64,000 nucleotides of DNA. It comes from Gilvimarinus algae (GTDB taxonomy: Bacteria > Pseudomonadota > Gammaproteobacteria > Pseudomonadales > Cellvibrionaceae). The stretch covers positions 1 to 64,000 of the forward strand of contig NZ_JAULRT010000035.1 of assembly GCF_030518215.1 (NCBI RefSeq), given 5' to 3'. Numbering within the stretch: the stretch's first letter is position 1; each line of letters opens with the position of its first letter. The notes below the pieces were generated by a model that saw only the letters and a program-made list of their open reading frames with translations, did not search any database and was not told the origin of the DNA. Made by a program: the position numbers and the translations under genes. Below are positions 42,485 through 60,800 of the stretch, piece after piece.

Positions 42485-44620
42485 TCAGGGGCCCTGGTAG
42501 TGAACGTTGTCCACTTGCAAATGAACATTGGCCTGTGACTCCCAAGGCGGGAGGATCACGAAGGGGGTGTTCACACGGGACAGGTCCAGCCCCCCGGCAA
42601 CCAAATTATTCACCGGTACGCTGACACTCTCCCACTCGCCCACGCCCACCATACCGACGGGAATATTGCCGGAGGAGCAGGGATTGTTACAGTCGGCCTT
42701 GATGATCAGCTCGGAGGCACTGGCGTAGTCCAGCACTTTGACATCAAAGTTCAGGGTGCCGCCGGCAAAAGCTGACATATCCTTGGTGCTGGTGGCCTGA
42801 ATAAACGCCAGGCCGCTGCCGCCGGTATCACCAAACTGTACATCCAGTACCTGGCCCCTTTCGGCTTCGTCGCTGTCGATAATGCTGGCAGTCACCTGGC
42901 CCGCGGCGGTCTCGTAGATCCCGAGGCCAAAATCCCAGTTCACATCAATGGCATCGTCAAACACGGTATGGGGCGGTTCTATCACCGGCGACTGACCCGC
43001 GAGAATGGCCTGCGGGCCGCAATCGCCCGCGCATTCCAGGGCAATATTGTTCAGCAGAATATCCGCAGCGCCACCGGAGACTTCCAGCACAAAGGCGTTG
43101 GTGACTTTGGCAAAATCCACTTGGCCGGCTTCAATATTATTCGGCTGCAGGCTGCGCAGCGGCACGGCGATGCGGGTCCACTCACCAACCGGCGGATCAA
43201 TTTCCGCGTAGCTGACATTGGGCCAGCCACTGTCGAGCTTCACAAGCAGCTCGGCGCTCTCGGCTTTACTCTGCACGAAGATATCAAAGGCCAATTGGCC
43301 GGTATTGACCATGGAGGACAGGTTCAAGCCGCCGTCCACCCCGCTGACACCAGCCATGCTATCGGTCGTCAAGAAGATGTTGGCCACACCAAAAAACTGG
43401 GCGTGCCAAAGCGTATTGCCATCTTGCATAAAGGCCGGGTCCGCCACCAGGTTGCCGGGGGTGGCCTGATAAAAAGCCGGGGTCAGTGTGTGCTGCAGCT
43501 CGCCCTCTGGGCCCTGCAGCGTCAGGCTGGCCGCTCCATCGCTGTACAGCGAATCGCTCTGCAAGGCAGGCGCAGGCACACCATCGAGCGGCTCGACGTC
43601 ATCGCTGAGGTTATCGGAGCAACCCTTGCCGGCCTCTACGTCGAGAGCGCACTGATACACGCGCACATACTCCACCTCCAGCGTTTGCGGAAACACGGTG
43701 CTAGTATCGGGGTTGCCCGGCCAGTTGCCGCCCACGGCGAGATTCATAATCAGGTGAAAAGCCCGATCAAAAGGCGCTGCGCCCTCACCGATTTTGTAAC
43801 CCTCGCCGTTACCGGCATCGTAGTAGTTGTACCAGCCATCGGAGGTCTGGGTGGCGTAGTGCACATCGTCCACAAACCAGTGAATAGCACCTTCACTCCA
43901 CTCCACCGCGTAGGTATGGAATGTCTCCCAAACGTTCTCAGTAGGTGTATAGGAGGTGCCGGTGAATTTGTTACCGGGCCATTCGGCGCCGTAGTGCAAA
44001 GTGCCATGCACCTGGTTTTCACCAGCGGCATTGTTATTAACGGCCTCGAGAATATCGATCTCGCCGCTGCGCGGCCAGCCACCGTAGACGCTCTCGGTGG
44101 GCAACATCCAGAAGGCGGGCCATATACCCTGGCCTTGAGGCAGCTTGGCCCGCATTTCCATACGGCCGTAGGTGAAGTCACCTTTGTTTTTACTGCGCAG
44201 CCGCGCCGAGGTGTAATCGCGCTGTGCGGAGGTGTCATTGGGGTCGTAGCTCGGGTCGTCGTCCCAAGTGTTGGGGCCGGCAAAGCTCTCTTCGCGGGCC
44301 ACTATGTGCAGGCGCCCGTCGGCCACATAGGCGTTGTCTTCGCGGTCGGTATAGCACTGCAGCTCGTTGTTGCCACCGCCGGTGCAATTGACCTCAAAGC
44401 TCCACTTTTCGCTATCAATGCTATCGCCGTCAAACTCATCGGACCAAATCAGCTCCCAGTTTTCATTAAGCGCTACTGAACTGCTGCTGGAGCTGACACT
44501 GGAGGAGGATGAGCTGGAACTGCTGGAAGAGGAGGAGGGAGAAGAATCGCTATCGCTGCCACCGCAACCGGACAGCGCGGCGACGGCCAGCACAAGCAGG
44601 CCTTGGGTATATCTGGTCAT
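42485..44620 (-). CDS. GH16 laminarinase-type lipoprotein
   Basis: This 711-residue surface lipoprotein has a lipobox (LSGC, Cys 19), a poly-Ser linker (about 26-50), then a GH16 catalytic domain (about 55-325). The catalytic motif is 'SGEIDILEAV' (E-x-D-x-x-E, near 187), with 'GIWPAFWMLP' and 'PFDRAFHLIMNLAVGGNWPG' as usual. Two beta-sandwich domains follow (about 360-530 and 545-711) that resemble the module after the GH16 domain of the neighbouring gene. Likely hydrolyses beta-1,3-glucan such as laminarin; agarase or carrageenase activity cannot be excluded from sequence. ATG 44620 follows a gaggtaag ribosome site. Confidence 0.9.
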   Translation of the reverse strand: MTRYTQGLLVLAVAALSGCGGSDSDSSPSSSSSSSSSSSSSVSSSSSSVALNENWELIWSDEFDGDSIDSEKWSFEVNCTGGGNNELQCYTDREDNAYVADGRLHIVAREESFAGPNTWDDDPSYDPNDTSAQRDYTSARLRSKNKGDFTYGRMEMRAKLPQGQGIWPAFWMLPTESVYGGWPRSGEIDILEAVNNNAAGENQVHGTLHYGAEWPGNKFTGTSYTPTENVWETFHTYAVEWSEGAIHWFVDDVHYATQTSDGWYNYYDAGNGEGYKIGEGAAPFDRAFHLIMNLAVGGNWPGNPDTSTVFPQTLEVEYVRVYQCALDVEAGKGCSDNLSDDVEPLDGVPAPALQSDSLYSDGAASLTLQGPEGELQHTLTPAFYQATPGNLVADPAFMQDGNTLWHAQFFGVANIFLTTDSMAGVSGVDGGLNLSSMVNTGQLAFDIFVQSKAESAELLVKLDSGWPNVSYAEIDPPVGEWTRIAVPLRSLQPNNIEAGQVDFAKVTNAFVLEVSGGAADILLNNIALECAGDCGPQAILAGQSPVIEPPHTVFDDAIDVNWDFGLGIYETAAGQVTASIIDSDEAERGQVLDVQFGDTGGSGLAFIQATSTKDMSAFAGGTLNFDVKVLDYASASELIIKADCNNPCSSGNIPVGMVGVGEWESVSVPVNNLVAGGLDLSRVNTPFVILPPWESQANVHLQVDNVHYQGP

Positions 44621-45032
44621 GGTTCTTACCTCAATTATTATATGAACCCCGGAGAACATCAGGAATGGACTGTCGCTATTATTATCGCGGTGAAAAAATC
44701 CCCTCCCTTGCGGGAGGGGCCAATCACATAATTAAGGAGAGTCAGTTAAATATTTGCATATTCGCCAGACTCATACAGGCGGCCACCTGACCTGCCACCT
44801 GTAGCGTGGGAGTAACCCGGAGAACCGGTTGCCCTTACACCCACAGCATAGAGTGTGGCCTGCTGTTTTGCCGCTTTCGTCCCAGTTCTTGAAATCCCTT
44901 AAGATGGGAGCTTTGCCCGACCCACGCCAGCACTGGCCTGCAAACAACCCTGTCCGTTAAGGCCTTTTTGCAGAAGAACCACTTTCCCGTGCTCGCGAAG
45001 TGGGACTCACGCCGCGATTGGCTAGCGCACCA
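44621..45032. other. intergenic region between the two GH16 genes
   Basis: No gene is supported. It holds two terminators (at 44693 and 45033) and presumably the promoter of the lipoprotein GH16 gene. A folded-looking stretch at 44795-44860 (gggagtaacccggag, ggttgccctta, acccacagcatagagtgtgg) could be structured but I could not match it to any riboswitch class. Confidence 0.4.
44693..44719 (-). terminator. rho-independent terminator on the minus strand
   Basis: A perfect 8-bp stem of cccctccc and gggagggg with a ttgc loop is followed on the minus strand by ATTTTTT. It lies between the two GH16 genes and isolates their transcripts. Confidence 0.8.
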
Positions 45033-45081: not shown

Positions 45082-48000
45082 CTAGAGCGATTCGATAAAG
45101 CGCAGCAGGTTGTTGCGCGCCCCACTGGAGAGACCATCGTAAGCCTGCTTGGAGGCCAGGGCCTCGCCGCCGTGCCAGCGAATCGCCTCGTCGATGGTAC
45201 GCGCGCGCCCATCGTGCAGGAAGTTCGCATCTGGCGTGCAGTACTCGTAGCCATCCAGGCCAAAGGCATCCCAACCGCGGCCACCGGCCACACCACCGGT
45301 GACACAGGCAGACAGCCCTACGCCCCACAGAGGTGCGGTGCGCCACTCGCTGCCGCTGGCCTCGCCTTCACCGAGGTTGTCGGCCAGACCGGGACCCATA
45401 TCGTGCAATAGCATATCGGTATAGGGGCGAATGGTCTGATCGCGCAGCTCCGCCAGCGGGTGGTACTGACTGGTCTGATGCGTGGGCGTATGACAGTCGG
45501 CACAACCAATCTGGCTGAAGGTTTGCTCGCCCGCCAACACGGCCGGATCGTTGTAATCACGCTGCGGACGCACACCCAGCAGTGAGACGTATTTCACCAG
45601 ATGGTCCACTTCACTGTCCGCAATCTCGGCGCCCGAGGGGCCGCAATCGGTTTGCTGGGGACCGCAATCCGGGTTGGGCATGGCGTTGGTCATTACACCC
45701 ATATCGGTGTTAAACGCCTGCACCACCTGATGCTTCACACTGGCAGTCGCTGCTTTGTAGCCAAAGCGCCCCAGACGCGTTGCGCCGGTTTCCGGATCGG
45801 TCACACGGTTCGCACGACCGGAGATACCATCGCCATCGGCGTCGTTGGGATCTTCCAGCGCGAGAATGGCGGCCTCGGGAATGGCTTCAAGCAAGCCGAT
45901 ACCATTGAGGTTGGGCGCCAGACGCGCGGAGAAAGTCTCGGGCGTGCCGGTTGCAAAGGTGTAGTTGGGCGAGCGCAGACCGTTGGCTTCGCTCCAGAAG
46001 TCGATCGCAACGCTGCCTTCACCGATCACACCACCGGAGTTCGCCGGCTGCAGAACGCGACCGCGCAGCGGATCCGGGTTGCCATTGGCATCGCCAATTT
46101 TGAACACCCAGCGATCCAGATTCTCACCATTGGGGGCGACCGGGGCACGACCATTGCGCTCGTGACAGCCCGAGCAGCGCTCATTGATGTAGTGCGTACT
46201 CGACTTGCCCACCATGGGTCCGAAGATCCCGTTTTCGGGATTCTCGTCGTGAGAACCATCGACAAAGGAGGTGTGGTGCACCCGGCGACCAAGCACAAAC
46301 GGCTGGCCGTTCTCGTAACCGAGGTTGGTCGCCATTTGCTGGAAGTGACCATCGGGTTCGGCGGTCATCTGCACGTGCAGGGTGGTATCACCACCCATGC
46401 GGGCTTTTTCCGGTACCGGGATAGAATCGCGCTGCAGATAGTTGCCCGACTGGAAGGCCACCTTATCGGTCACATCCCAGGGCACCATGCCCTGCCCGAC
46501 GATGTACAGGTAGGTGGTGCCGTAGTAATTGGCACGACCACGCGGTACCGAGCCGTCGAGGAACTGGCTGATCTCAAACTCCAGCTTATCGCCCACCTGA
46601 ATCGGACGACCTTCACGGCAGTTCCAGCTCTCTTCTTTCCAGTAGTTCACATTGTCGTTGGTTTGCATCACACCGTTGCCGCAGTACTGCGCCAGGGTAT
46701 TCAGGCCCTCGTACCACCAGCGGTTTTCCGCCTCGGTGTCTGAGAGCTTGAACTCAGTGCGCACGTTCATGCGAATGGTGTCGCCGCCTTTGGCCACATA
46801 GTCGATGATCTCGATGGCCGCGGTACGGTCTTCCCAGTAAAAGGTCAGATAGTGATCGTAGGCCTGGAAGTGGTTTTCCTTGGCGTGACGATCGCGGGCA
46901 CGATCGGCAAAGCGCGTCACCAGCGCATCGCCGCGGTCGTACTGAATGACCGGCTCCAAAGCGGTGTTTTCATCGTACAAAGGCACCACATTGGCTCCGG
47001 GCGGAACACTGACCGGGCAGCCATTGCCGTCCACGTTCGTGCCTGGTGCAGTGCCCGGGCACTGATCCTGCGCATCGCTGACACCGTCGCCATCACTGTC
47101 GGTCGGGGTCGGATCAGGATCCGGGTTAGAGCCGCCACCCAAGGTATAGCTGGCCCAGGGAGAGTCCACGGCGCCGCCCAGATTAGCGTTCCAGTAAGTG
47201 AAGCTGTACTCCACCACATCGCCACTGCTCAGGCCGCTGACGCTATAGGTGTTGCGGCCGGCATTTTGCAGCATGGCCACATTCACCTGGCCGCCGCCAT
47301 TGACGGTGTAGTGGAGGTCCGCCCAGTCACTGGTGTTCAGGTAGAACTCAACACTACCGGCGCCGGTTTCGGTCACGCCATAGCTGCCGTCATTGTTGCT
47401 GATAAGCGCACAGCCGTTGGCGTCCACCTGGGCACCGGCGGCAGTGCCGGGGCACTGATCGAGATTATCGCTTACGCCATCGCCGTCACTGTCGCCAAAC
47501 ACCTGACAGCCATTGGCATCGACGTTCGCGCCTGCAGGCGTGTTGGGGCAGGCATCGGCACCGTCGCTGACACCGTCGTTATCGCCGTCCAGCACTACCG
47601 GGCAACCGTTGCCATCCACCTGGGTGCCACCTGCGGTACCGGGGCACTGATCCTGGCCATCGGCCACGCCATCCCCGTCGCTGTCGGACACACCGGTTGT
47701 GGGTGAGAGTGCCAACCAGTTGATGTTGAAGGGTACACTGTCGGCGTTCAGGCGGATGGTCGCGGTGCCGTTACCCACGGTAAGAGTACCCAGGTTCCGG
47801 GTCGTCCAGCTCTGCCAACCGCCAGTATCACCAACGGCTGCCGTGCCTGTACTGGCCCCGCCAGCGGTCACGCTGATGCTGCCGCCAGCGCCCTGTGAGG
47901 CCACTCGGGCGGTGACATCGTAGGTGCCGGCCGCCAGCTCAGCGCTGAACTCGAGCCACTCACCGGGCGCCGTCCAGCCGACGTTGTAGCCGCCACCGGT

Positions 48001-50307
48001 GTCGGTGGTCGCCTCGATGTCCACATCGTCACTGCGGTAGGCACTGCCGTCGTTGCCGGCGGTGGTGTCGTAGTAGTTGATGTAGTCCTCAGCCTGCAAC
48101 TGTACGCCACCGGTGGCGCAGCCAGCGCTATTGACACTGCTGCCAGCGGCGGTCGCGGGGCAGAGGTCACTGGCATCGCCAATACCGTCGCCGTCAGTGT
48201 CGACGACCACTCGCTCGAGGCCGATCCAGTTGAGATTGAAACCCGCGGCATCCACGTTGACACGCACAGCAGCATTGCCCGCTGCGACATCGAGGGTACC
48301 GAGGCTGACGCTGGTCCAGCTCTGCCAGCCGCCGGTGCTATTGACCGGTGCACTGGCGGTGTAAGCGCCGTTGATGCCAACACTTAAAGCGCCGCCACCG
48401 TCTTGCGAGGCCACCCGAGCGGTGATCTCGTAGGTTCCGGCCGCCAGATCCGCCGAATACTCCAGCCACTCGCCGGCGGCTGTCCAGCCGACGTTGTAAC
48501 CGCCATCGGTATCGGTGGTCGCCTCAATATCCACGTTATCAGAGCGGTAGGCGCCGCCACTGTTACCGGCGTCGGCGTCGGAGTAGCTCTCGTAGTCCTC
48601 AGCCTGCAGGCGCACACTGTTGGTGGCGCAGCCCAAGGCATTAACACTTGTACCTGCCGGGGTGTTGGGGCAGGCGTCGTTGGCATCGAGCACACCGTCG
48701 TTGTCGGAGTCGGTGGGTGTGCTGACCGCGCAGCCATTGCTATCCACGCTGGTGCCGGCAGGCGTGTTGGGGCAGGCGTCGTTCTGATTGGGCACGCCGT
48801 CGCCATCGTCGTCCGCCGCATCACCACCACCTTCGTAAACGATGTCATCAATGGCGAGGGAGAAGTTGGCAGAGGGTGTGCCATCGTCGCCGTTGAGGAT
48901 CACAAAGGGGTATGAGAGCGATTGCATGGCTACCAGCGAACCGCGAAGGTCGGCCACGGGAATGGTAACCGTGCCCCAATCGCCGTTGCGCACCAGACCA
49001 TACTTGCTCTCTCCGGCCGGGAAGTTAATGTAATGCTCGTTGGTGTAGGTATCGGTAATGCCCACTTTAAAGGAAACATTGGCCGGCACCTTGATGCGGA
49101 ACTTGAGCTGACCGTCTTCAAAGTTGCTTAGGTTTACCGCTTGGCGCGCCTGGATACCGCCGCCAAACCACTGGCCTGGCGCTGTGTAGTCCCAGCTGAT
49201 GACATTGCCGCCCTCTGCGGGCGCTTCATTGCCACCGACCAGAGAGCCAGTGCTCCAGATATAGACGTCTGAGCTGGAGCCAGCTTCCAGTTTGTTGCTG
49301 GTGGGCGTGTTGTCGGTAAAGACACCAAAGGTGCCCACTTCAGGCTGGGAGCTGTTGCCGAGGATCACCTCGCCCTGGCCGTCATACTCGTAGACGCGTA
49401 CATAGTCGATGTACATTTTTGCCGGTAAAGGCGCAGTCACCTGGCTGTTTTGCAGCGCATCGGTAAAGTTACCGCCCACGGCCAGGTTCATCAGCAGGTA
49501 GAAAGGCGCGCGGAACTCTTCGGACTCTTCAGTGATGCCGATAGGCGCGTCGTACATATCGTACTCAACACCGTTATCCACCGCGGTAAAGCGCAGGGAA
49601 TCTTCCGTCCAGTACAGGCGGTAAGTAATAAAGCGGTCGTTCATGGGGGTTGAGGAAACGTAGGCGTTATCCGTCTCCCAGGCCGACATGGCCGCACAGG
49701 TTGGGTTGCCCTCAACGCAGGCACCCTCAGCGTAAAAGATGGCATTACCACCGACAAAGTTATTGACGCTGGTGCCCGGGTAGAGCTTGTCAATCTCTTC
49801 CTGCCGGTGCCCCATCTCCATCATATCGATCTCGCCCTTGGCAGGCCAGCTGGCGGTGCTGGTGCCCAGCAGCCAGAAAGCCGGCCACAGGCCCGTATCG
49901 AGGTTGGGGACGCGTATGCGGGTTTCGATCATACCGTACTGCACGGCCACCGCGTTCTGGCTATCCAGCTTGCCCGAAGTAAAGGCGCTGCCGCCGACGT
50001 TTTCGGCGCGGGCCTCAAACACCAGAGCCGAGTTACCCGGCTCACCGGGTACCGCTTCGATGGAAACATTGTCGCCCTGGTAGTATTCCAGCTCCTGGTT
50101 ACCCCAACCGCACAGGTTCGGGCCCAACTGGCAACCATTGCCTTCAATGACGTTCCAATGCTCGGTATTGAGTGAATTAAAGTTGTCTTCCCACAGCAGT
50201 TGGCCGACTTGCTGGGCGTGGGAAGGTACGGCTGTTACGGCTGCACTGAATGCGGCAATACCTATCAGCGTGTGCCGACCAGTATGACGCGATTTGCGCG
50301 TTAACAT
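45082..50307 (-). CDS. secreted GH16 laminarinase fused to CBMs, TSP3 repeats and a di-heme oxidoreductase
   Basis: This 1741-residue exported protein has a GH16 domain first (about 28-310; 'KGEIDMMEMG'), then a beta-sandwich module (about 320-490), seven TSP3-type Ca-binding repeats ('DSDGDGVSDNLDQCPGTAAG' kind), two CBM6 domains (about 566-695 and 735-868; 'LQAEDY' start), a CBM56-like beta-glucan binding domain (about 970-1060; 'GSVEFYLNTSDWADLHYTVN'), and a C-terminal di-heme oxidoreductase region (about 1105-1741) of the DUF1111/COG3488 type with C-S-G-C-H near 1377 and C-A-D-C-H near 1602. 'HDMGPGLADN' and 'FLHDGRARTIDEAIRWHGGE' are usual for that family. ATG 50307 follows a ggag ribosome site. 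A hydrolase plus a redox domain in one chain is unusual. Confidence 0.9.
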   Translation of the reverse strand: MLTRKSRHTGRHTLIGIAAFSAAVTAVPSHAQQVGQLLWEDNFNSLNTEHWNVIEGNGCQLGPNLCGWGNQELEYYQGDNVSIEAVPGEPGNSALVFEARAENVGGSAFTSGKLDSQNAVAVQYGMIETRIRVPNLDTGLWPAFWLLGTSTASWPAKGEIDMMEMGHRQEEIDKLYPGTSVNNFVGGNAIFYAEGACVEGNPTCAAMSAWETDNAYVSSTPMNDRFITYRLYWTEDSLRFTAVDNGVEYDMYDAPIGITEESEEFRAPFYLLMNLAVGGNFTDALQNSQVTAPLPAKMYIDYVRVYEYDGQGEVILGNSSQPEVGTFGVFTDNTPTSNKLEAGSSSDVYIWSTGSLVGGNEAPAEGGNVISWDYTAPGQWFGGGIQARQAVNLSNFEDGQLKFRIKVPANVSFKVGITDTYTNEHYINFPAGESKYGLVRNGDWGTVTIPVADLRGSLVAMQSLSYPFVILNGDDGTPSANFSLAIDDIVYEGGGDAADDDGDGVPNQNDACPNTPAGTSVDSNGCAVSTPTDSDNDGVLDANDACPNTPAGTSVNALGCATNSVRLQAEDYESYSDADAGNSGGAYRSDNVDIEATTDTDGGYNVGWTAAGEWLEYSADLAAGTYEITARVASQDGGGALSVGINGAYTASAPVNSTGGWQSWTSVSLGTLDVAAGNAAVRVNVDAAGFNLNWIGLERVVVDTDGDGIGDASDLCPATAAGSSVNSAGCATGGVQLQAEDYINYYDTTAGNDGSAYRSDDVDIEATTDTGGGYNVGWTAPGEWLEFSAELAAGTYDVTARVASQGAGGSISVTAGGASTGTAAVGDTGGWQSWTTRNLGTLTVGNGTATIRLNADSVPFNINWLALSPTTGVSDSDGDGVADGQDQCPGTAGGTQVDGNGCPVVLDGDNDGVSDGADACPNTPAGANVDANGCQVFGDSDGDGVSDNLDQCPGTAAGAQVDANGCALISNNDGSYGVTETGAGSVEFYLNTSDWADLHYTVNGGGQVNVAMLQNAGRNTYSVSGLSSGDVVEYSFTYWNANLGGAVDSPWASYTLGGGSNPDPDPTPTDSDGDGVSDAQDQCPGTAPGTNVDGNGCPVSVPPGANVVPLYDENTALEPVIQYDRGDALVTRFADRARDRHAKENHFQAYDHYLTFYWEDRTAAIEIIDYVAKGGDTIRMNVRTEFKLSDTEAENRWWYEGLNTLAQYCGNGVMQTNDNVNYWKEESWNCREGRPIQVGDKLEFEISQFLDGSVPRGRANYYGTTYLYIVGQGMVPWDVTDKVAFQSGNYLQRDSIPVPEKARMGGDTTLHVQMTAEPDGHFQQMATNLGYENGQPFVLGRRVHHTSFVDGSHDENPENGIFGPMVGKSSTHYINERCSGCHERNGRAPVAPNGENLDRWVFKIGDANGNPDPLRGRVLQPANSGGVIGEGSVAIDFWSEANGLRSPNYTFATGTPETFSARLAPNLNGIGLLEAIPEAAILALEDPNDADGDGISGRANRVTDPETGATRLGRFGYKAATASVKHQVVQAFNTDMGVMTNAMPNPDCGPQQTDCGPSGAEIADSEVDHLVKYVSLLGVRPQRDYNDPAVLAGEQTFSQIGCADCHTPTHQTSQYHPLAELRDQTIRPYTDMLLHDMGPGLADNLGEGEASGSEWRTAPLWGVGLSACVTGGVAGGRGWDAFGLDGYEYCTPDANFLHDGRARTIDEAIRWHGGEALASKQAYDGLSSGARNNLLRFIESL

Positions 50308-50717
50308 AGCTCTACTCCAGGGTTGATTATTTTTAAAGTTCCCTTGGGATATCGGGTTGCGCCTCCACCATCGTGGGCGCGATTGCGTTTCCTTATGCAC
50401 AAACACAGGGCGTACTCTGGACTCACTTATGACGCTTTATGGGGAGCAAATCCGCCACCCGCACCTGCTTTGAGCATTACAAGCTAGCGCTTACGCCTTG
50501 AGAATTCGTCACCTTTTCGCGAAAGGCGCAATCTGTGACCGACATTTTTACCGTACTTGGCTGCAGGCCAGACAGCGCGTGGCCTGCGAAGCAGCAGAAA
50601 TAGATGCCAATTAGCGAAAGTCACACCTTCCCACCTTGCTATTTGAGTCAAAAAAACTGGGATAACAGAAGTGGAACACGCAAAAAATGGGTTGGCCGCC
50701 AAACCTTTGGCGGATGC
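50308..50717. other. intergenic region upstream of the GH16-oxidoreductase gene
   Basis: No gene is supported. A 72-codon minus-strand frame at 50484-50702 has no ribosome site or family resemblance. The region must contain the promoter of the large gene. No convincing operator or hairpin was seen. Confidence 0.4.
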
Positions 50718-51851
50718 TCAATCACTGTGCATATTCTCCCGGCGGTATTCAGTAGGGGACTGCCCGACCATACGGTTGAAAAAACGGTGGAAAGAGGACT
50801 TATTGTTAAAGCCCGAGGCAAGCAATATATCGAGGATGGTCATTCTTGCACTCTTGGGATCAGCCAAAAGCTGTTTGGCATGTTCCACTCGATGGTGATT
50901 GATGAACTCGAAAAAGCGGGTCCCCAATTCCCGATTGATAGCTTGCGAGACCAGGCGCGGTGGCACACCGACACGCTCGGAAAACTGGTCGATATTAATA
51001 CTCGGTTGCAAATGCAACTTATGCACATCTATGCCGGTTCTGATGGCCTGGAGCACATCCTCCGAAACCAGCGGCAAGTCGGGGGCGTCTTCCTCGGCAT
51101 TGTCGTCGTCGCCAAGACTCCAGGTGTAAGCCAAGTTGTAGAAAATCAGGCCGTTCATCAATAAAAACCGAATAAAATTGTGTGAAGTTCCTACACGATC
51201 GGCGACCGGCCCACCCACAGTATCGGCCACAAAAATCACCAAAAACGACCAGGCCCAACTCACCAAAAAGCAAATGCTCAGCACCGCCAACCATGTCATT
51301 TCCGAAGAAGGCAGAGATGACAAGCGCTGCTTTGCCCGGCGCATATGCTGATTGAGCGCAACCACAGACCAAAGCGCATAGCCCACCGAAACCAAACTCG
51401 ACAGATACCAGATGTTGCTGGCCAACCGGTCGGGGGCGGTTTCATCAAAGCGCGATTGTAAATCGGCAGAGCTCACACCGACCCACCAAGCCAAGACCAC
51501 TGCCACCACGGCAGGCAAGGCATGACACCAATGCCACCACCCTCTGGGAGATGAACCACGAAGCAAAGAGGAGACATACAGATAAAACAAAGGACCGCGG
51601 GCAAAATGGCTAAAAGTAAAGGTGAGGGCCAACAATCGCTCCCTTGGCCAGCCACTGACCGGGAACGCCGGATTCCACATAATCAGATTAGTAAGCATAT
51701 CAATGGCCACCACCAGCAGAAACAACGCCAACCAGCCATTAGCGCTTTTGTTCGCGCCGGTCAACACCGAGCGGTAGGCAGCCAAGAGTAAGACTTCGAA
51801 AATGGTGATGATCAAAAACAGATCATGCAGGTTAAAAATTCGATCTTCCAC
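50718..51851 (-). CDS. membrane-bound AraC family regulator (second copy)
   Basis: This 377-residue protein has the same design as the one at 41332: six to seven membrane segments and a C-terminal AraC domain ('NIDQFSERVGVPPRLVSQAI', 'INHHRVEHAKQLLADP', 'TILDILLASGFNNKSSFHRF'). Opening residues 'MEDRIFNLHDLFLIITIFE' match 'MEAYIFNFHDVVLFMTIIE' of the other copy, so the two are paralogues. It lies directly upstream of the GH16-oxidoreductase gene on the same strand and likely controls it or the adjacent locus. Ligand unknown. Confidence 0.85.
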   Translation of the reverse strand: MEDRIFNLHDLFLIITIFEVLLLAAYRSVLTGANKSANGWLALFLLVVAIDMLTNLIMWNPAFPVSGWPRERLLALTFTFSHFARGPLFYLYVSSLLRGSSPRGWWHWCHALPAVVAVVLAWWVGVSSADLQSRFDETAPDRLASNIWYLSSLVSVGYALWSVVALNQHMRRAKQRLSSLPSSEMTWLAVLSICFLVSWAWSFLVIFVADTVGGPVADRVGTSHNFIRFLLMNGLIFYNLAYTWSLGDDDNAEEDAPDLPLVSEDVLQAIRTGIDVHKLHLQPSINIDQFSERVGVPPRLVSQAINRELGTRFFEFINHHRVEHAKQLLADPKSARMTILDILLASGFNNKSSFHRFFNRMVGQSPTEYRRENMHSD

Positions 51852-52090: not shown

Positions 52091-52849
52091 TCAGTCTCGC
52101 CACCAAAAATTCACCAGTACGTTGACAGAGCCCAGCGCCTCAACGTTGTGCCACCAATTGGTTGGAATGTAAATTACATCGCCCGGCCGCAAGGTCGCGC
52201 ACTGGGCATTGCGTAAGGCCCGCTCGAAACGCGGAAAGGCTTTGAGATTCGGCGCCTGCAGATCCACAAGGCTCACTACGCGTCCAGCGGGTGTAAGATC
52301 TGGTGGCCCTAGATAAAGATTTTCCTCTTCATCCGGGGGAAACAGGACAAACTTTCTACTTCCTGCCGCCACACAGGCAAGATTCTCAGAATCGTCATTG
52401 TGAGTGGCCACCACGGAGGCATTGCCAAACCAGATACTGGGAGCGACGGAGGAAGGCAGCACCCGCATGGGCGTTTCTACTTCCAGGCCCGGCAAATACT
52501 CTTCTATTTTTTTTGAACCCACATAAAAAGTCGGCGGATTGGGCTTGTCACTCAGCGCCTCGAGTATTTTAAGGGCCTCGGCGAGATCGCCGTTTAACCG
52601 ATCAAAGTTAAAGCCGCTTAAGTCCGGCTTATAGAACAGTCTCCCGCCTTGGGACGAGGGGGCGATCATCGCCTGAAATGGGTGACCAACATCAAACGAG
52701 CGAAGATAGTCCGCCAGCGCTGGCAAGCCTGAAGCGGCCTTTTTAACCAACGTCCAGTCGGACACCATACCGCGGATAACCGCCGGCTGATTATCCCTTT
52801 GAAGACTTTTGACATCGTCCAGTGCGTCAAGCTCTGCAATGGGGTTCAT
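52091..52849 (-). CDS. cupin-like (JmjC-type) domain protein
   Basis: This 252-residue protein matches the cupin_8 / JmjC-like family (PF13621). The first metal-binding pair is 'ATHNDDSEN' (H-x-D), the distal His is in 'IPTNWWHNVEAL', and 'RKFVLFPPDEEENLYLGP' is the family core. These proteins are Fe(II)/2-oxoglutarate-type oxygenases by fold; the substrate is unknown. A second copy lies at 55833. It is the last gene of the run SapC-cupin-halogenase-DUF6445-SapC-cupin, 2 bases after SapC. Cytoplasmic; no signal. Confidence 0.85.
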   Translation of the reverse strand: MNPIAELDALDDVKSLQRDNQPAVIRGMVSDWTLVKKAASGLPALADYLRSFDVGHPFQAMIAPSSQGGRLFYKPDLSGFNFDRLNGDLAEALKILEALSDKPNPPTFYVGSKKIEEYLPGLEVETPMRVLPSSVAPSIWFGNASVVATHNDDSENLACVAAGSRKFVLFPPDEEENLYLGPPDLTPAGRVVSLVDLQAPNLKAFPRFERALRNAQCATLRPGDVIYIPTNWWHNVEALGSVNVLVNFWWRD

Positions 52850-52851
52850 GC

Positions 52852-53553
52852 TTAGCCTTTTGCGGTCACCATTCGTCTGGCCAGATTACTGACCGCACCA
52901 ATAGAGTGAAGATGAGCGTAGGTCCAGCCGAGCCACCCTTTGTGGTACCAATCGACGATTTCTTCCTCGGTCAGCGCACTATGAAACTCGTTAGTGTCGA
53001 CAACGAAAAAGTCGTCCAGCTTAAGGCTGGAACCTTTCATTTTTACTTCAACGTCGGATCTTACCAGCAGGCCTTTCACCTTTAGTGCAAAGGTATACTC
53101 GAGGGTCATACGGTGCATGGTTTCGAGCTGATTTAAATACTGCAGTATGCCCTGAAGAAATTCTGAAGGATTACCCGCATCATCGAACAGTCGATCACCT
53201 TCTGTCTCGGAAAAATGGGGCGCCGACTCATCGATCATCACCACACTTTTATCCTCTGCCAGCGCAAAAGGATAGCGTTTGACAAATTCCGGGACGTAAA
53301 ACCCCTGCCACGACTGTCCCAGCTGATGGCCACCCGAAGTCAGGGACAAGAGCGCAACTGGCAGGAAACTACTGCCCGACTCGGTGAACATCACAGGATA
53401 ATCACGGCTGGCTGGGAAAAATTCGTTGCCAGACAGTGGAACCGCGTTTACGCCTGAGGCATAGCCATACCCCTGCTGCGCATTAAACCGCAGCGCCTGA
53501 TGCTTATCCCGCGCCAGAGGCGCGGGTTTGTTATAAAAAAGTAACTCTGCCAT
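52852..53553 (-). CDS. SapC family protein
   Basis: This 233-residue protein belongs to the SapC family (PF07277): 'NEFFPASRDYPVMFTESGSS', 'LPVALLSLTSGGHQLGQSWQ' and 'FYVPEFVKRYPFALAED' are typical. The family is named for a Campylobacter surface-layer-associated gene, but members here are linked to TonB-receptor loci and have no known reaction. There is no signal peptide. A distant second SapC is encoded at 56857. The gap to the downstream cupin gene is 2 bases, so they are co-transcribed. Confidence 0.85.
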   Translation of the reverse strand: MAELLFYNKPAPLARDKHQALRFNAQQGYGYASGVNAVPLSGNEFFPASRDYPVMFTESGSSFLPVALLSLTSGGHQLGQSWQGFYVPEFVKRYPFALAEDKSVVMIDESAPHFSETEGDRLFDDAGNPSEFLQGILQYLNQLETMHRMTLEYTFALKVKGLLVRSDVEVKMKGSSLKLDDFFVVDTNEFHSALTEEEIVDWYHKGWLGWTYAHLHSIGAVSNLARRMVTAKG

Positions 53554-53595
53554 TATTCTTTATCCTAATCTGCGAGCGTTTATGCCCGGGTAAAC

Positions 53596-54303
53596 TCAAC
53601 TTGTTTCAAAATCAATAAATACATTGGCGGTCAGCCGGCCACGCGCCGGATCACTACAGACATCCCGTTGCTGCGACACCAAACCGCTGTGAAGTAAGCG
53701 GCCGGGATACATCACCAGCCGATTGCATCGGTAATCAACTTTTTCGTAGCACTGGAACTGACGCGACGACTCGCCCATATAACCGGGCTGCGGAAATCCC
53801 TTTACGGCCATAAAAGACAATACGGACTGTTGATACAATTCCCTTTTCTCTGTCGAAATCGCCTCGAATCCGGTAGGCAAATGTCGAAAAAATCCAGTTC
53901 CTCCGAATTCGCCCTCGTTCAGGTAGTGCAAAACGGCGTAGTAATGCCGCTTGGTGGTATCAAAATGAGGCAGCCTCTGCATCACCGACAGCTCACTCTC
54001 ATTGGTCGTCAGTAAGGAGAAGTAAGCCATGGAAACCTCCGGGCGACGCGCTTGCGGAATAGAAAACTCACTTCTCAACAACGGCTCGCAAAAGGCGAGC
54101 ACGTGATGGACATAATCATCCGGCAGGCAAGCCCGAAGACCTGGGTAGCTGGTCTTACCATCCGGTCTGTAATCGAGATTGCCGCATGCGACTTTCTGTA
54201 TGTCGGCAAGGCTGTCAGAAAAATCGTCAACAACCAGAATTTTGGCATCATCTGATCCGATACCATAGACTTTCACATTAGCCGAGGGCTTGCTTGCCAG
54301 CAC
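53596..54303 (-). CDS. DUF6445 protein, 2OG-oxygenase-like
   Basis: This 235-residue protein fits the DUF6445 family. It has the motifs of a 2-oxoglutarate/Fe(II) oxygenase: H-x-D in 'LPHFDTTKRHYYAVLHYLNE', 'GGTGFFRHLPTGFE', a distal His in 'PGRLLHSG', and an Arg in 'RGRLTANVF'. The enzyme class is an inference from these residues. It starts 3 bases after the halogenase stop and is part of the same transcript. Substrate unknown. Confidence 0.75.
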   Translation of the reverse strand: MLASKPSANVKVYGIGSDDAKILVVDDFSDSLADIQKVACGNLDYRPDGKTSYPGLRACLPDDYVHHVLAFCEPLLRSEFSIPQARRPEVSMAYFSLLTTNESELSVMQRLPHFDTTKRHYYAVLHYLNEGEFGGTGFFRHLPTGFEAISTEKRELYQQSVLSFMAVKGFPQPGYMGESSRQFQCYEKVDYRCNRLVMYPGRLLHSGLVSQQRDVCSDPARGRLTANVFIDFETS

Positions 54304-54306
54304 GTG

Positions 54307-55800
54307 TCACACCACAGTCGATTTACAGTAATACTCGATAAACTCATGATGCTCGGGTAAGCGCTCTACCTTTTGCTTTGTCGACATCAATGTGTCTTTT
54401 AAAAACTCACCCAGCGAATCGTCGGCCATAGTGTCGACCACGGGGTGATAGGCATCGGGCATTAGGCCCTGCCCCATCATCACCTGCACCCAGGACTCCT
54501 CGGCAAACAAATCTAGGTCCTTTTTAAAAATCTTTCCGGTTTCTTTGAACAGTTTAATGCGATGGCTTAGCGAATCCGGCACATCCATGGTGCGGCAATA
54601 GCGCCAAAAGTCACTGTCATCCCGATCCGTCACATGATAGTGCAAAATAATAAAGTCTCTGATGCTCTCAATCTCATCACGACACTGCTGGTTAAACTCA
54701 TCCACTTGGCTTTGCTTTATGCCATTGGAAGGGAAAAGCTGAACAAGGCGGGTGATTGAGCGCTGAATCAAGTGAATGCTGGTTGACTCCAAAGGCTCCA
54801 GGAAACCACTGGAAAGACCAATGGCGACACAGTTTTTCTTCCAGTGGACTTTGCGCGAGCCGGTGGTGAATTTTATCACCCTCGGGTCGGTTAACAGCTT
54901 TCCATCCACATTCTCGGCAAGAAACGTTTTGGCATCCTCGTCAGACAAATAATCACTGGAGAAAACTAGCCCGTTGCCTGCACGGTTCTGCAAAGGGATT
55001 CGCCACTGCCAGCCAAAGGGCCTGGCAATAGAGCGTGTGTAGGGTAAGGGAGGCGCCGTTAGTTCTGTTTGCGCGGCAACAGCGCTGTTGCATGGCAGCC
55101 AGTGTGACCAGTCGTCGTAGCCGGTACCGAGCGCCTCACCAATCAAGAGTGCGCGAAAACCGGTACAATCCACGAACAGATCGCCCTCTACCGTCTCCCC
55201 TGACTCCAGAAGAATAGACTTTATAGAGCCATCATCTTGATCGAGATTAACTTTGGCGATGGTGCCCTCTTTGCGTACAGCGCCGTACTTTTCACTCACT
55301 TCGCGAAGAAATTTCGCGTACAAGCCGGCGTCCAAATGGTACGCATAGTTAACGCCGTTTTTAGGCACTACGGCAAATTTCTTCATTCTGGCCGCGAGGT
55401 GCTCGGCGCAGTAGTCACCGTATTGGGACACGTCAATACCGCGCTTTTTAGCTCCCACCCAGAAGTGATGAAACTCGGCCGCCCAGTTGCTCTTTCCCGC
55501 AAAACCAAACGAGTGTACGTAGTCTTTGCCTAAATCGTGCCAGCCCTCAAACGAGATACCCAGCTTGAAGGTGCCGTTGACCCGGGACAAGAACTCTTTT
55601 TCTCCCAAATCAAGAACTTTGTGAAAGTTGATAATGGGCGGAATCGTCGCCTCGCCGACCCCAACGGTGGGGATAGCATCGGACTCAACCAAGGTCAGCT
55701 CAACCCCCCGGCCCAAAGATTTGGAGATCAGGGCGGCAGCCATCCACCCCGCCGTTCCGCCACCGGCGATGACTACTTTCTTTATTCTTGTATTGTTCAA
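54307..55800 (-). CDS. flavin-dependent tryptophan-halogenase-like protein
   Basis: This 497-residue protein is a full-length member of the tryptophan halogenase family (PF04820). It has the FAD-binding 'VIAGGGTAGWMAAAL', 'VGEATIPPI', the region of the catalytic Lys in 'GTFKLGISFEGW', the FAD-halogenase 'FGWQWRIPLQ' (W-x-W-x-I-P), and the active-site Glu in 'SGFLEPLESTSIHLI'. Halogenases linked to TonB-receptor loci are known to brominate or chlorinate aromatic compounds in vitro; the natural substrate is unknown. A separate flavin reductase would be needed; none is in the run. It is tightly packed with its neighbours. Confidence 0.9.
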   Translation of the reverse strand: MNNTRIKKVVIAGGGTAGWMAAALISKSLGRGVELTLVESDAIPTVGVGEATIPPIINFHKVLDLGEKEFLSRVNGTFKLGISFEGWHDLGKDYVHSFGFAGKSNWAAEFHHFWVGAKKRGIDVSQYGDYCAEHLAARMKKFAVVPKNGVNYAYHLDAGLYAKFLREVSEKYGAVRKEGTIAKVNLDQDDGSIKSILLESGETVEGDLFVDCTGFRALLIGEALGTGYDDWSHWLPCNSAVAAQTELTAPPLPYTRSIARPFGWQWRIPLQNRAGNGLVFSSDYLSDEDAKTFLAENVDGKLLTDPRVIKFTTGSRKVHWKKNCVAIGLSSGFLEPLESTSIHLIQRSITRLVQLFPSNGIKQSQVDEFNQQCRDEIESIRDFIILHYHVTDRDDSDFWRYCRTMDVPDSLSHRIKLFKETGKIFKKDLDLFAEESWVQVMMGQGLMPDAYHPVVDTMADDSLGEFLKDTLMSTKQKVERLPEHHEFIEYYCKSTVV

Positions 55801-55832
55801 AACTCTCTCCCAACAATCTGCTTTACAGGATA

Positions 55833-56840
55833 CTAGGGTCTGTTGAAAATGGACGCCAAATGGGCCCGGATTCTCTTTGCCAGACTGCGATGCGCCGGCG
55901 CCAGGACGCCGAGAACTTGAGGCGGAATATGCCGGTGATTGTCTTCCTGATAGTCAAAAATGTAGTGATTAAAAATATTTTTCCATATTTCGCGCTGCTC
56001 CTGCGGCAGGCCCCGTAAGCTCAACAGCGCATGGTGCAAAACATACTCTGGATTGCTCATATAATCGGGTTGACTCCGCCACCAGTAGTTCACCAACACA
56101 TTCAGGTTTTCAAGTGCCCTTACGTGATGCCACCACATACCTGGAATAAACAGCGCATCCCCCGCGCCGAGCTCCACTACTCGCTTTTGCTGCTCCGCTA
56201 TTTGGTATTTGGGAAATTTTTCCAAATCCGGATTGTCGATATCCACAAGGCTGATTGGCCGGCCTGAGGGCGTAACATCCAAGGGGCCAACGTATAGATT
56301 CTCCAGCTGATCGGGTGGAAACAAACTGAAGCGTCGCCGCCCCGCCACATTGCAGACAATATTGTTGGGGCAGTCATAGTGTGCAGACACCACGCTTTGA
56401 TTGCCCAGCCAAACACTGACCAAAGGTTCCGAGACTCCTTCTAGCGTGAGTCGGTTATCCTCCTGAAAACCCGGCAACCACTCATCTACAAGCGTCGAGC
56501 CTATATAGTAAACAGGTGCCTCAGCAGCACCCCGACCCTGCTCAAGCAAACGCAAAACTTGTGACAGGTTTGCCTCTGAGCGTTTGAAATTAAAACCACT
56601 GTAGTTATCGTTATAAAATATTTTTCCCTGCGCCGAAGGATCACACTGGTAGTAAGTAACTGGCCGCCCCTGATAAAACCTTTCAAGGTATGCGCTCACC
56701 TGTGCGTCCGACTGCAAGCCAGCCTCAACTACGGGCCAGTGACTTACCAGCCCCCGAAGCAATACCGGCTCGCGTGACGAGAGCACCCAGTCAGGAATAA
56801 CACCCGCGGTAGATGCGCTCACCGACTTTACTGTATTCAT
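55833..56840 (-). CDS. cupin-like (JmjC-type) domain protein (second copy)
   Basis: This 335-residue protein is a longer relative of the cupin at 52091. It has 'SAHYDCPNNIVC' (H-x-D), 'RRRFSLFPPDQLENLYVGP', and 'IPGMWWHHVRAL' (distal His), plus a 90-residue C-terminal extension beginning at 'PDYMSNPEYVLHHALLSLRG'. Fe(II)-dependent oxygenation is inferred from the family. It starts 16 bases after the stop of the SapC gene at 56857 and precedes the halogenase by 32 bases. Confidence 0.85.
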   Translation of the reverse strand: MNTVKSVSASTAGVIPDWVLSSREPVLLRGLVSHWPVVEAGLQSDAQVSAYLERFYQGRPVTYYQCDPSAQGKIFYNDNYSGFNFKRSEANLSQVLRLLEQGRGAAEAPVYYIGSTLVDEWLPGFQEDNRLTLEGVSEPLVSVWLGNQSVVSAHYDCPNNIVCNVAGRRRFSLFPPDQLENLYVGPLDVTPSGRPISLVDIDNPDLEKFPKYQIAEQQKRVVELGAGDALFIPGMWWHHVRALENLNVLVNYWWRSQPDYMSNPEYVLHHALLSLRGLPQEQREIWKNIFNHYIFDYQEDNHRHIPPQVLGVLAPAHRSLAKRIRAHLASIFNRP

Positions 56841-56856
56841 AACAAGCGCCTGAAGA

Positions 56857-57588
56857 TCAAGCCTCCTGATAGTCGATGGCTTCGCGCTGACTCTTGAGCT
56901 TAATGAGCTTTTTCACATTGGCCAGAGAGGCCACCGCCATGTAAATAGGCAGCAGGTAACCGAGCTTGTTAAGCTCATCCAGAGCCTCGCCGCTCAAACC
57001 GGCAAGGACCTCCTCGTTAATGGTGTGAAAGCCGAGGAGCTGGGCTTGACGACCTGTTTCAAGCGTGATGTCAAAGGTCACGGGTTCGAGCAAGTTGTAC
57101 TTGTTCAACACCTTATCAAAATTCTCGCCCTGCTCGCCCCACAAGTGAATGGTTTCGAGTGCCGAGGCCATATAATCCAGAAATTCGGTTTGTTCACCAA
57201 ACTCCGAGAACAGGCTGCTACCATCGGTCTTGCTCACGCGAGGGCTGCTCATGTCGATATGCAGCACGCGAACGACACCGTCCTGCCCTTTCTGAAAGCC
57301 TATCTGAAAGGGTTGTCTTTGCATCATCAAAGGGATGTAACCCGCGTTCCAGCCGGCCTCTTCGAGAAACAGGTTTTCACCGTCCTCCAGGCCAAAAAGG
57401 GCGACAACAATAAACCGGTCGGAATCTCGGACTTTTTGAAACACAATGGGGTAATGTGGCTGAATATAGCGCAGCTCCAGAGGGAAGGTCTGCACCAGCA
57501 TGACGTTGTCACCGAGCTCTTCGGCCCGGCGCGTAATGACTTTGACGTCCTTGTGATCAATCTTATTTACCAACTCTACACTGCTCAT
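56857..57588 (-). CDS. SapC family protein (second copy)
   Basis: This 243-residue SapC-family protein shows 'ELRYIQPHYPIVFQKVRDSD', 'VVALFGLEDGENLFLEEAGW' and 'PFQIGFQKG', typical of the PF07277 group. It differs strongly from the other SapC in the window, so it belongs to another subgroup. It is the first gene of the halogenase run, located after the terminator of the TonB receptor gene. Function is unknown; no signal peptide is present. Confidence 0.85.
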   Translation of the reverse strand: MSSVELVNKIDHKDVKVITRRAEELGDNVMLVQTFPLELRYIQPHYPIVFQKVRDSDRFIVVALFGLEDGENLFLEEAGWNAGYIPLMMQRQPFQIGFQKGQDGVVRVLHIDMSSPRVSKTDGSSLFSEFGEQTEFLDYMASALETIHLWGEQGENFDKVLNKYNLLEPVTFDITLETGRQAQLLGFHTINEEVLAGLSGEALDELNKLGYLLPIYMAVASLANVKKLIKLKSQREAIDYQEA

Positions 57589-57767
57589 AGCATTCTACGC
57601 CTTTTGACTTGTACTCTTATCGGGCATGCAACAATGAGTATGACGCCAGACTCCACCAATATCCAGCCCGAAGGGCAGTTCTTGGCACTGTTTCTCTCTT
57701 AGCTGGACAGAGCCCGTCAGCTGACACCTGCCCACTCACTCAGCCTAACCGATATACGGCCAAGGAC

Positions 57768-57797
57768 AAAAAAGCCGCTGATAAACAGCGGCTTTTT
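57768..57797 (-). terminator. bidirectional terminator between the TonB receptor and SapC genes
   Basis: Stem aaaaaagccgctg / cagcggctttttc with an ataaa loop; on the minus strand it ends in a T-run. It follows the TonB receptor stop by 37 bases, so part of the transcription should end before the SapC-halogenase genes. Confidence 0.9.
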
Positions 57798-57833
57798 CAT
57801 GCGCATAGCGCGCGTTACAAGACTACACTTTCG

Positions 57834-60800
57834 TTAGAAAGTGTAGCGAGCACCAATGTTGTAGCGTGGACCACTGGTGTACACGCCTTTGGTCAACAGG
57901 TCTGTACGCCCGAAGTTCCGACCATACTCATCCGTAACGTTGATGCCTTCCAGGAATATCGTGAAGTTCTCACTGATATCGTAGCTGGCATTCACGTCAA
58001 TCTGACTATAGTCTTCGACGTAAGTCGGGTTAGCACCGGTACCATCGGCTGTGCCGGCCAGGAACTGGTCGCGCCAGTTGTAGCTAACACGCAGCTGGAC
58101 ACCGTTTTTCTCGTAGAAAGCGATGAAGTTGGCGGTATCGCTCAAGCCAGTCAATGCAAACTGTGCGTTGGCAATATCGTTGTCGTCAAAGCTGGTGTCA
58201 GACTCGGCGATAGTGTAGTTCGCCACCACACCAAAACCGGTATCCCAGAAGGTGTGCTGTACCGCGAACTCCCAACCATCGAAAGACGCGTTATCCTGGT
58301 TGACGAACTCGGTCACATTGAAGATCACGTTCGGATCGCCCGGCAGGCCGAGAACCCAGCTGGGGAACTTGGTGAAGTCAACACCAGGCTCACCTTCTTC
58401 AGTGTTATTGACGATGTAGTCACGAACCGCGCCAGTGCTCCACTGGTTGTTAGGATCAGCGGCAACAGCGGCGTCGCGACGGCTACCCTGAGACGGGTCC
58501 GGAGCATCGAACAGCTCTTCCGGCGTTACGGTAGAGCCGATGAAGTTCTCTACGTCTTTCTTGTAGTAACCCACAGACACGTAGCTGGCGTCACCGTAGT
58601 ACCATTCCACCGACAGGTCGAAGTTATCCGACAGGATTGGCTTCAGGTCGATATTGCCGCGAGTCGCCGCACCACCGGCTGTGCCAGGGAACATAGACTG
58701 AGGCGCGATCGGACCACGACCTACAGACAGGGCGCTCATTTGGTTCCACAGCGGACGACCCAAGCTGCGGCCATAAGAAGCACGGACCACTACGTCGTCC
58801 AATACATCGACAGCGATATCCAGGCTCGGCAGGAAGTAGTCGTAGCCACCGACACCGTTCTCGACCGGATCTACCGAGTAATCATCGGCAGTCAGCAGGT
58901 ACATCTCGTTACCGCCGATCCAGGCAACTTCACCGGTGAACTGATCTTCGATCGGCGTGGCGTAGGAGCGGGTTTCAGTGTCTTCCCAGCGCACACCCAA
59001 GGCAGCTCTGGTGCGCATACCGGCGATGTCGGTATCCATGTTGAGCTGGACCCAGGCACTGTTTGAATCTTCCTCAATGATGCGCACATCATCGGGAGTC
59101 GGGTTCATACAGTAATAGGTGCTACCGTTGGCGCAGTCGGAGAAACCACCGCCATCGTCCAGGTTGTCAGCGGCGTACTGAACCACTTTGTCAAAGTCGG
59201 CTACATAGCGGAAGCCCAGGAGGTTTTCGCTGTCGTGACCGCTGACATTGTCAAAGTAGCTGCCAATATCGTCCAGCGTGTAACCATCCATCGGCACATC
59301 GCCCGGATTACCCAGACCGCCCCAGGTATCGCGCTGGTTGTTGGCAAAGGTAGAGCGGTTGCTCTGCTCGATGCGAGATACACCGAAGTCCATATCGAAC
59401 TGATCAGTGAACTCGAAATTACCTTTGAACTGGAACTGATCGATTTCGTGCACCATCCGCGCGTTGCGGAATGAGCTACCAGTGATCTGCAGGTCGCTCA
59501 GCTCAACGTCCTTGGAAACGCCCACGTTCAGTACGGGCAGATCTTGGCCCAGGTAAACGGCTGAAGAGTCACGCAGGAAAGCCGAAGTGGTAATAACGTT
59601 GCTGTTACCGTAAGGGCTGTCAGGCTTGGACTCTGCTTCCGAGGCGTGCGCATCGAACTCCAGGGTCAGGCGATCAGTGACAGTCCACTCGACGTTCAGG
59701 CCCAGAGAGTCATTTTCGTTAACGCTGGCATTGTAACCAGCACCAAAGGTGAGGTCAGCGCCGTTCAGGCCAAACTCTTCGTACATGAGCGGCGACTCAA
59801 CCACGCCCGCACCGGCATCGGTCCAAGAGGTGCGACGGTTGGCACCGAAGTTAAACCAAGCACCCACATCGGAGAACTTGGAAGACTCCTCTTTCTTGGA
59901 GTAGGTGTAGTCCATGGTGGCTACGATGTCGTCGGTAGGCGCGTATTGCAGCACCAATTGGCCGTTGATACGGGTACGCTCGTACTCGTTAAAGCTGTAG
60001 CCGGTCTGCTGTGGCACTGCGTAGAGATCACCATCTTCCGGGCTCGGCGGATTGGTGTGGAAATCGGTGTCCTGCAGGTTAGTGATTGCACCCCAACCCT
60101 CAGCGCCTGCCTCAAAGTAGCGCCAACCGGTGCCCACTTCTGAATTGGCGTTGCCGCCTTCACGATCCTGATAGCTGAAAGACAGACCCACACCGAACTT
60201 GTCATCGGCGAAAGTGTTGCTGTACAGGCCAGAGATTTCAGGTGTCAGGCTCGGATCCGCTGCTGAATCGTCATAAACGCCCTTAACACCCACAGACAGC
60301 TGCTGACCGGGGTTTTCAAGCGGACGTGCGGTTTTAATGTTGATGGTCGCACCAACACCACCGGCCGGATTCTCAGCGCGTACGGTTTTGTACACTTCAA
60401 CACCGCTGATACCTTCAGAGGCGATGTTTGAGAAGTCAAAAGAGCGAGAACCAGAGACGCTGGTGGCCTCAATGGTAGTGCCCGGCATTTGACGACCGTT
60501 CAGGGTAACCAGGTTGTAATCCGGACCAAAGCCACGCACGGTCACTTTGGAGCCTTCACCGTTGCTGCGGTTGATCGACACACCGGTGATACGCTGCAGA
60601 GATTCGGCGAGGTTGGAATCTGGGAATTTACCGATATCTTCAGCAGAGATCGCGTCTACAACACCCTGAGAGTCCCGCTTGATGTCCATCGAGCGCTCGA
60701 GACTGGCGCGGATACCAGTAACGACTACTTCTTCCAGCATATCCTCATCAGACTGGGCAAATGCCAGATTTCCCATTCCGGCCAGAGCTGTAGAGGCAAC

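Follow-up and report, generated by a model that had tools for sequence, protein, structure and literature searches.

The 64,000-nucleotide stretch analysed here (the window) covers positions 1 to 64,000 of contig NZ_JAULRT010000035.1 of Gilvimarinus algae, whose genome is 4.2 Mb, and contains a single minus-strand open reading frame (ORF) that runs without an internal stop from an ATG at 50307 to a stop at 45082 and encodes 1,741 amino acids (aa), with a GTG at 50406 as the alternative start of the mechanical ORF (Table 1). At the N-terminus of its product Pfam finds glycoside hydrolase family 16 (GH16; Glyco_hydro_16, E=6e-8, 32.7 bits against a cut-off of 22), the E-x-D-x-x-E motif is present as EIDMME, the two Glu of which we take to be catalytic, and the closest solved structures are laminarinases and endo-1,3-glucanases; from profile, motif and nearest structures we predict a GH16 laminarinase. 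The C-terminus matches the di-heme oxidoreductase family (DHOR, PF06537) at E=1.3e-62 and 212 bits (cut-off 22; best stretch residues 1461-1741) and carries two CxxCH motifs, and the structure model of this domain has the di-heme superfamily fold of cytochrome c peroxidase (CCP) and MauG. Pfam and motif searches thus bear out an earlier note on this DNA, which had placed a GH16 domain with EIDMME and a di-heme DHOR with two CxxCH motifs at opposite ends of one ORF, and the HMM search puts the C-terminus in a heme family and not in a non-heme one. Among the modules listed between them, a carbohydrate-binding module (CBM) of family 56 and seven TSP3 units were recovered (7 TSP_3 stretches in total, reaching about residue 1100, by Pfam at E up to 1), whereas the single CBM6 became two CBM6/35 modules, and a beta-sandwich after GH16 (residues 316-492), common to most GH16-DHOR fusions seen, had been left out. 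The C-terminal 640 residues are DHOR as proposed but not a single unit, as they comprise a conserved N-terminal beta-sandwich (the N-domain, about residues 1106-1290) followed by the di-heme domain (about 1299-1741); the two make up the 636 residues common to close relatives, which we call the core.

Table 1. Features of the fusion gene and its neighbours, in window coordinates
Feature	Position	Strand	Basis or remark
Whole gene	45082..50307	-	GH16 - sandwich - TSP3 - CBM6/35 x2 - TSP3 - CBM56 - TSP3 - N-domain - DHOR
Putative signal peptide, residues 1-31, terminus SHA-QQ	50215..50307	-	Judged by eye from sequence
GH16 beta-1,3-glucanase domain (predicted), residues 31-312	49372..50217	-	Pfam, nearest solved structures
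GH16 catalytic motif EIDMME, residues 159-164	49816..49833	-	Motif search
Second beta-sandwich after GH16, residues 316-492	48832..49362	-	Pfam, weak SGBP_B_XBD match
First TSP3 repeats, about residues 495-560	48628..48825	-	Pfam
CBM6/CBM35-type module, residues 588-695	48223..48546	-	Pfam CBM_35_2/CBM_6
Second CBM6-type module, residues 759-868	47704..48033	-	Pfam CBM_35_2/CBM_6
CBM56, residues 976-1049	47161..47382	-	Pfam CBM_56
Core N-domain, conserved beta-sandwich with RxRxRH, about residues 1106-1290	46438..46992	-	Fold nearest CBM56
DHOR domain, about residues 1299-1741	45085..46413	-	Pfam; di-heme CCP/MauG-type fold in model
His1345 (core H240)	46273..46275	-	Alignment rows
First heme motif CSGCH, residues 1378-1382	46162..46176	-	Motif search
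Second heme motif CADCH, residues 1602-1606	45490..45504	-	Motif search
His1712 (core H607), distal-ligand position of second heme	45172..45174	-	Alignment rows
GH16 with ExoP_C domain, downstream neighbour	42485..44659	-	Same strand, 422 bp away
AraC regulator, upstream	50718-51851		Pfam of window proteins
Two cupin_8 proteins, SapC, DUF6445, tryptophan halogenase, TonB-dependent receptor	52091-60908	-	Cluster adjoining AraC gene, upstream

The fusion is genuine, one secreted-type protein that joins laminarinase and di-heme oxidoreductase domains; the assembly join or frameshift between the halves that the earlier note had raised is ruled out because GH16-DHOR proteins recur in many genomes, both in other Gilvimarinus and in other families. 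Of 58 related genomes, 39 held relatives of the C-terminal 558 residues. Among 144 genomes from the family of G. algae, 70 held one at E<=1e-60, and all 14 matching frames there that are longer than 1,500 aa, spread over 12 genomes, carry GH16 together with the core. Four of seven other Gilvimarinus genomes hold the fusion, two hold the core with GH16 as a neighbouring gene, and one is without the whole core. Outside the family, carriers include Pseudoalteromonas sp. Bsw20308 (WP_007375536.1), P. caenipelagi and a Colwellia metagenome-assembled genome (MAG). Aliiglaciecola lipolytica, whose GH16 the window GH16 failed to match in a one-sequence search, and HTCC2148, whose GH16 was recognised with a purpose-built GH16 profile, are carriers as well. 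When the class was sampled evenly, DHOR at E<=1e-80 occurred in 31 of 369 genomes and the whole core in at least three, including the genome of the window; in a phylum sample DHOR occurred in 64 of 299 and the whole core in at least four, two of them Gilvimarinus, these whole-core counts being lower bounds in that 3-4 candidates were scored per genome. A scan of genome contigs took the best 80 of 569 relatives, and whole cores among these came from gammaproteobacteria, myxobacteria, planctomycetes, verrucomicrobia and fibrobacteres, many of them MAGs. One full-length relative is carried on a 906-kb plasmid, and one scan of viral contigs returned no relative. In Catenovulum sediminis (L102:6294-9963, plus strand) the core gene falls into two reading frames, and no GH16 was seen in the DNA of the locus.

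The N-domain is the most conserved region among the Gilvimarinus proteins, as judged by identities alone since dN/dS was unusable (dS saturated or not computable). Its predicted fold has CBM56, a beta-1,3-glucan module, as nearest relative; an assignment to CBM56 by sequence was unsupported (hhalign Prob 0.8, E 0.069, with the Pfam CBM_56 match confined to residues 976-1049), and we retain the resemblance of fold only. Within it, core residues 30-56 (window about 46905-46825, minus strand) hold a cluster of RxRxRH, His47, Tyr52 and Arg56 that is invariant or nearly so. The RxRH part also occurs in 9 of 12 proteins of a distant DHOR branch, found in the same genus and family, whose members carry GH26 and/or CBM31 in the manner of 1,3-xylanases, and in none of 27 ordinary DHOR ORFs. 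Nor was the 636-residue core found in the ordinary DHORs examined, most of which are about 450-630 aa long and start near core position 190-295, with a partial core in a few longer frames. N-terminal partners of the core include CBM56, CBM6/35, F5/8-type modules, CBM10 and TSP3, with GH16 in a subset, and judging by these sequences N-domain plus DHOR is a unit that travels among proteins.

Pairing with GH16 takes more than one form. A strong core match (E<1e-140) was present at 67 loci, of which 13 have GH16 fused, 10 have it as a separate gene and 44 have it in neither form; two places appear twice in these counts (L042/L066 and L046/L074), and some contigs are short. No separate or fused GH16 was seen at 17 weaker or GH26-type loci, and no GH16 gene at 27 ordinary DHOR loci, whose genomes may be without GH16 altogether. 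At two loci (L041, L071) the genes share a strand, with GH16 behind the core gene at a distance of no more than about 100 bp (14-17 bp when taken to the mechanical ORF start), and at two others (L038, L039) a second GH16 lies downstream, as in the window. Two genomes of one genus (G419 and G515) differ in how modules of like kind are encoded, by one 1,628-aa protein in one genome and by two adjacent genes about 145 bp apart in the other, and in the two-gene version each gene has a signal-peptide-like start, as read by eye. A quick tree was built from 79 hand-picked rows (all 35 from the genome searches, and 44 ORFs drawn from the 80 loci of the contig scan), its root being unsure since the chosen outgroup failed to form one side of a branch. 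On it the GH16 label changes about five times, three of them forced by well-supported branches, although the five is inexact because one locus (L078) was scored as lacking GH16 with GH16 inside. The same tree, with its unsure root, clusters core and GH26-type proteins apart from ordinary DHORs. These data bear on the idea that the domain is an iron or small-molecule redox enzyme, derived from ordinary DHORs and merely hitchhiking on a glucanase. Ordinary DHORs often lie near imelysin, and in two plasmid records we found one beside an imelysin gene; the separate position of the core and GH26-type group, its extra domain, and the lack of GH16 genes at ordinary loci (with the caveat given above) nevertheless make this explanation highly improbable.

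The GH26 branch leads to a published case. That a glycoside hydrolase may be fused to a DHOR is not a new concept, because Xyn65 of Gilvimarinus xylanilyticus HB14 (WP_253968372.1; GH26-CBM31-CBM6-Big-DHOR, 176.6 kDa) was described in 2022 (PMC9638140). In that paper, Xyn65 accounts for 82.3% of 1,3-xylanase spectra in the secretome, DHOR is said to have been previously unfound in glycoside hydrolases, and two roles are proposed for it, namely redox activity on xylan or binding and stabilising. Three genomes (G002, G004, G007) encode GH26-CBM31-DHOR proteins of 1,672-1,673 aa that resemble Xyn65, the G007 copy with a CBM6 by Pfam. The genome of the window holds a second DHOR protein (L004:5436-8159, plus strand) with fn3 and CBM31 and, by Pfam, no GH26 or other hydrolase. 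The statement in the earlier note that no GH16-DHOR fusion had been described is accordingly narrowed: the laminarinase version was not found in the literature that we term-searched, outside which lay subscription papers and preprints, but a GH26-DHOR fusion had been published (PMC9638140). The same term search returned nothing on DUF1111 with carbohydrate binding, on a CBM6-cytochrome combination or on DHOR with imelysin, and the available part of PMC12125979 makes no mention of heme. As far as was searched, three things are new: the fusion with a laminarinase, the core that recurs, and the pair of genomes with one gene and with two.

Residues around the two hemes were counted in 79 DHOR rows (59 core-type, 12 GH26/CBM31-type and 8 ordinary), from which rows with fewer than two CxxCH motifs were kept out, so that both motifs being intact in 79/79 reflects the entry condition. 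Core Gln422 and Asp430 are each kept in 77/79 and His607 in 78/79, while His1345 is His in 57/59 core-type and 11/12 GH26/CBM31-type rows and in 0/8 ordinary DHORs. The distal ligand of the second heme is Met in CCP and Tyr in MauG. Here the aligned position is His1712, with His in 78/79 rows and X in the other, and from this alignment we predict a bis-His second heme; MauG-like bis-Fe(IV) chemistry was set aside because of this His. A Y294H MauG structure came up in the fold comparison, and this change reportedly impairs MauG. Near the first heme, a Trp/Tyr-Gln-Asp set is conserved in nearly all 79 DHORs and was matched to CCP by spacing only, the hhalign alignment of DHOR with CCP having spanned the second heme half alone; we take this spacing to resemble the CCP/MauG peroxide pocket. 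At core residue 412 (window 45759-45757, minus strand) where other DHORs have Trp, 25 of 59 core-type rows have Tyr, the window protein included. A profile search for a solved DHOR structure found none, with weak matches to a hydrazine synthase subunit and to CCPs. Both the modelled peroxidase fold and the Trp/Tyr-Gln-Asp set would also suit a protective peroxidase, in which the di-heme domain clears H2O2 at algal surfaces, where an oxidative burst would produce it, and so shields enzyme and cell, the CBMs merely giving it position. A general scavenger, however, would need no polymer-specific anchor, and it is a glycan-type domain and His1345 that set the core apart from ordinary DHORs, for which reasons we regard this role as unlikely.

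Taken together, these observations lead us to favour, at a probability of about 0.42, a secreted, polymer-anchored, di-heme peroxidase-like oxidoreductase that works alongside the GH16 domain, its target probably being the glucan or a substance bound to this. The protein would be kept on the polymer by the laminarinase together with the glucan-binding modules, with TSP3-type joints between its parts, and the C-terminal di-heme domain would carry out redox chemistry on the same polymer or something attached. The first heme, with its Trp/Tyr-Gln-Asp pocket, may be the site that reacts with H2O2 or O2, the second, predicted to be bis-His, may serve electron transfer, and the likeliest substrate would be beta-1,3-glucan, at chain ends or surface. 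Chemistry on or at the polymer is favoured because DHOR is paired with hydrolases of two kinds, each for its own beta-1,3-linked polymer, because a glycan-type domain is built into the redox core, and because the marker His is common to both hydrolase-linked branches; peroxide or oxygen as co-substrate is suggested by the peroxidase fold together with the conserved Trp/Tyr-Gln-Asp. This reading draws on sequence, domain layout, recurrence and conservation, and on a predicted fold; secretion, heme loading, ligands, substrate and any oxidation we infer. Recurrence, the one-gene/two-gene pair and the specificity of the core for DHORs linked to CBMs strengthen the coupling of hydrolysis to a redox step proposed in the earlier note, the coupling itself staying conjectural.

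Weighing against the favoured role is that recombinant Xyn65 was an active xylanase with no evident hydrolytic gain from its DHOR (PMC9638140). That result, and an N-domain whose modelled fold resembles a binding module, would fit the second hypothesis of the Xyn65 authors, by which the DHOR fold serves for glycan binding or stabilisation, with redox activity incidental or lost; the intact CxxCH pairs (in rows selected for them) and the near-complete retention of Gln422, Asp430 and His607 make such a scaffold quite unlikely. A further alternative is that the domain donates or relays electrons to lytic polysaccharide monooxygenases (LPMOs) or another secreted oxidase, as has been proposed for Cbp2D of Cellvibrio, where CBM-bearing cytochromes occur and the X183 domain of Cbp2D could start LPMO reduction (PMC8981238, PMC12542752). 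Teredinibacter X183 domains, however, failed to drive their LPMO (PMC10916295). Two AA10 proteins are encoded in the genome of the window and at least one in 14 of 18 chosen core-bearing genomes, yet the other four gave no AA10 match, a figure that comes without a background rate for AA10, and one of these four (G004) has the full GH16-DHOR fusion, another (G053) having a divergent core only. No AA10 was found among 9 neighbour proteins or 20 window proteins, and we know of no AA10 that acts on beta-1,3-glucan. Electron supply to an oxidase, also proposed in the earlier note, is weakened by the four genomes with no AA10 match, and we hold it to be very unlikely. More broadly, the core might represent a novel class of polysaccharide oxidoreductase, heme-based and anchored to the polymer, which as the heme analogue of LPMOs would oxidise or break beta-1,3-linked glycans with H2O2 or O2 beside a hydrolase (laminarin or curdlan with GH16, 1,3-xylan with GH26) in gammaproteobacteria, myxobacteria, planctomycetes, verrucomicrobia and fibrobacteres, a generalisation we consider somewhat unlikely.

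Around the fusion gene, the upstream set of AraC, cupin, SapC, DUF6445, halogenase and TonB-receptor genes presumably resembles an oligosaccharide uptake cluster. Elsewhere in the window are a 1,191-aa protein (5039-8614, plus strand) with cytochrome c, PA14 and 3-keto-disaccharide hydrolase domains, a heme/sugar fusion 37 kb away, and a 773-aa protein (32635-34956, minus strand) in which multiheme-type CXXCH motifs are joined to TPR repeats. In a Halioglobus MAG (L094:10226-11656, plus strand) a D-arabinono-1,4-lactone-oxidase-like gene, whose product we take to be a possible H2O2 maker, lies downstream of the core gene, a single case.

Laminarin ranks among the major carbon stores of the sea, and to our knowledge bacterial attack on it is hydrolytic; the pairing repeated in related bacteria suggests, at the level of sequence, that heme chemistry takes part in algal sugar breakdown. 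With laminarinase and di-heme oxidoreductase recurring in fused form, and a parallel in 1,3-xylanases, a redox step in the breakdown of beta-1,3-glycans can be put directly to the test. The N-domain RxRxRH, His1345 and two heme motifs define a recognisable family in bacteria of several phyla, in which the function of DHORs, for which our profile search found no solved member, may be sought. Compared with di-heme CCP and MauG, the window protein shares the modelled fold but has a distal His at the second heme, long inserts, an N-terminal glycan-type domain and a polymer-anchored context. With ordinary DHORs (PF06537, COG3488) it shares the Pfam family, both heme motifs and the pocket residues, whereas these are mostly 450-630 aa and lack the N-domain and His1345. 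Cbp2D and Cbp2E of Cellvibrio and TERTU_2913 and TERTU_3803 of Teredinibacter are likewise secreted, linked to polysaccharide and equipped with CBM and/or c-type heme domains, but in the available parts of their sources they have X183, X158 or X132 domains instead of DHOR, and no glycoside hydrolase domain is named. The DHOR of Xyn65 probably belongs to the distinct, distant branch, as judged from its look-alikes (L060, L061, L065) and not from the Xyn65 sequence, and Xyn65 has GH26 and CBM31 where the window protein has GH16, CBM6/35 and CBM56. Xyn65 is, however, like the window protein and in the same genus, a secreted hydrolase for a beta-1,3-linked algal polymer that combines a glycoside hydrolase, CBMs in the middle and a C-terminal DHOR in one protein.
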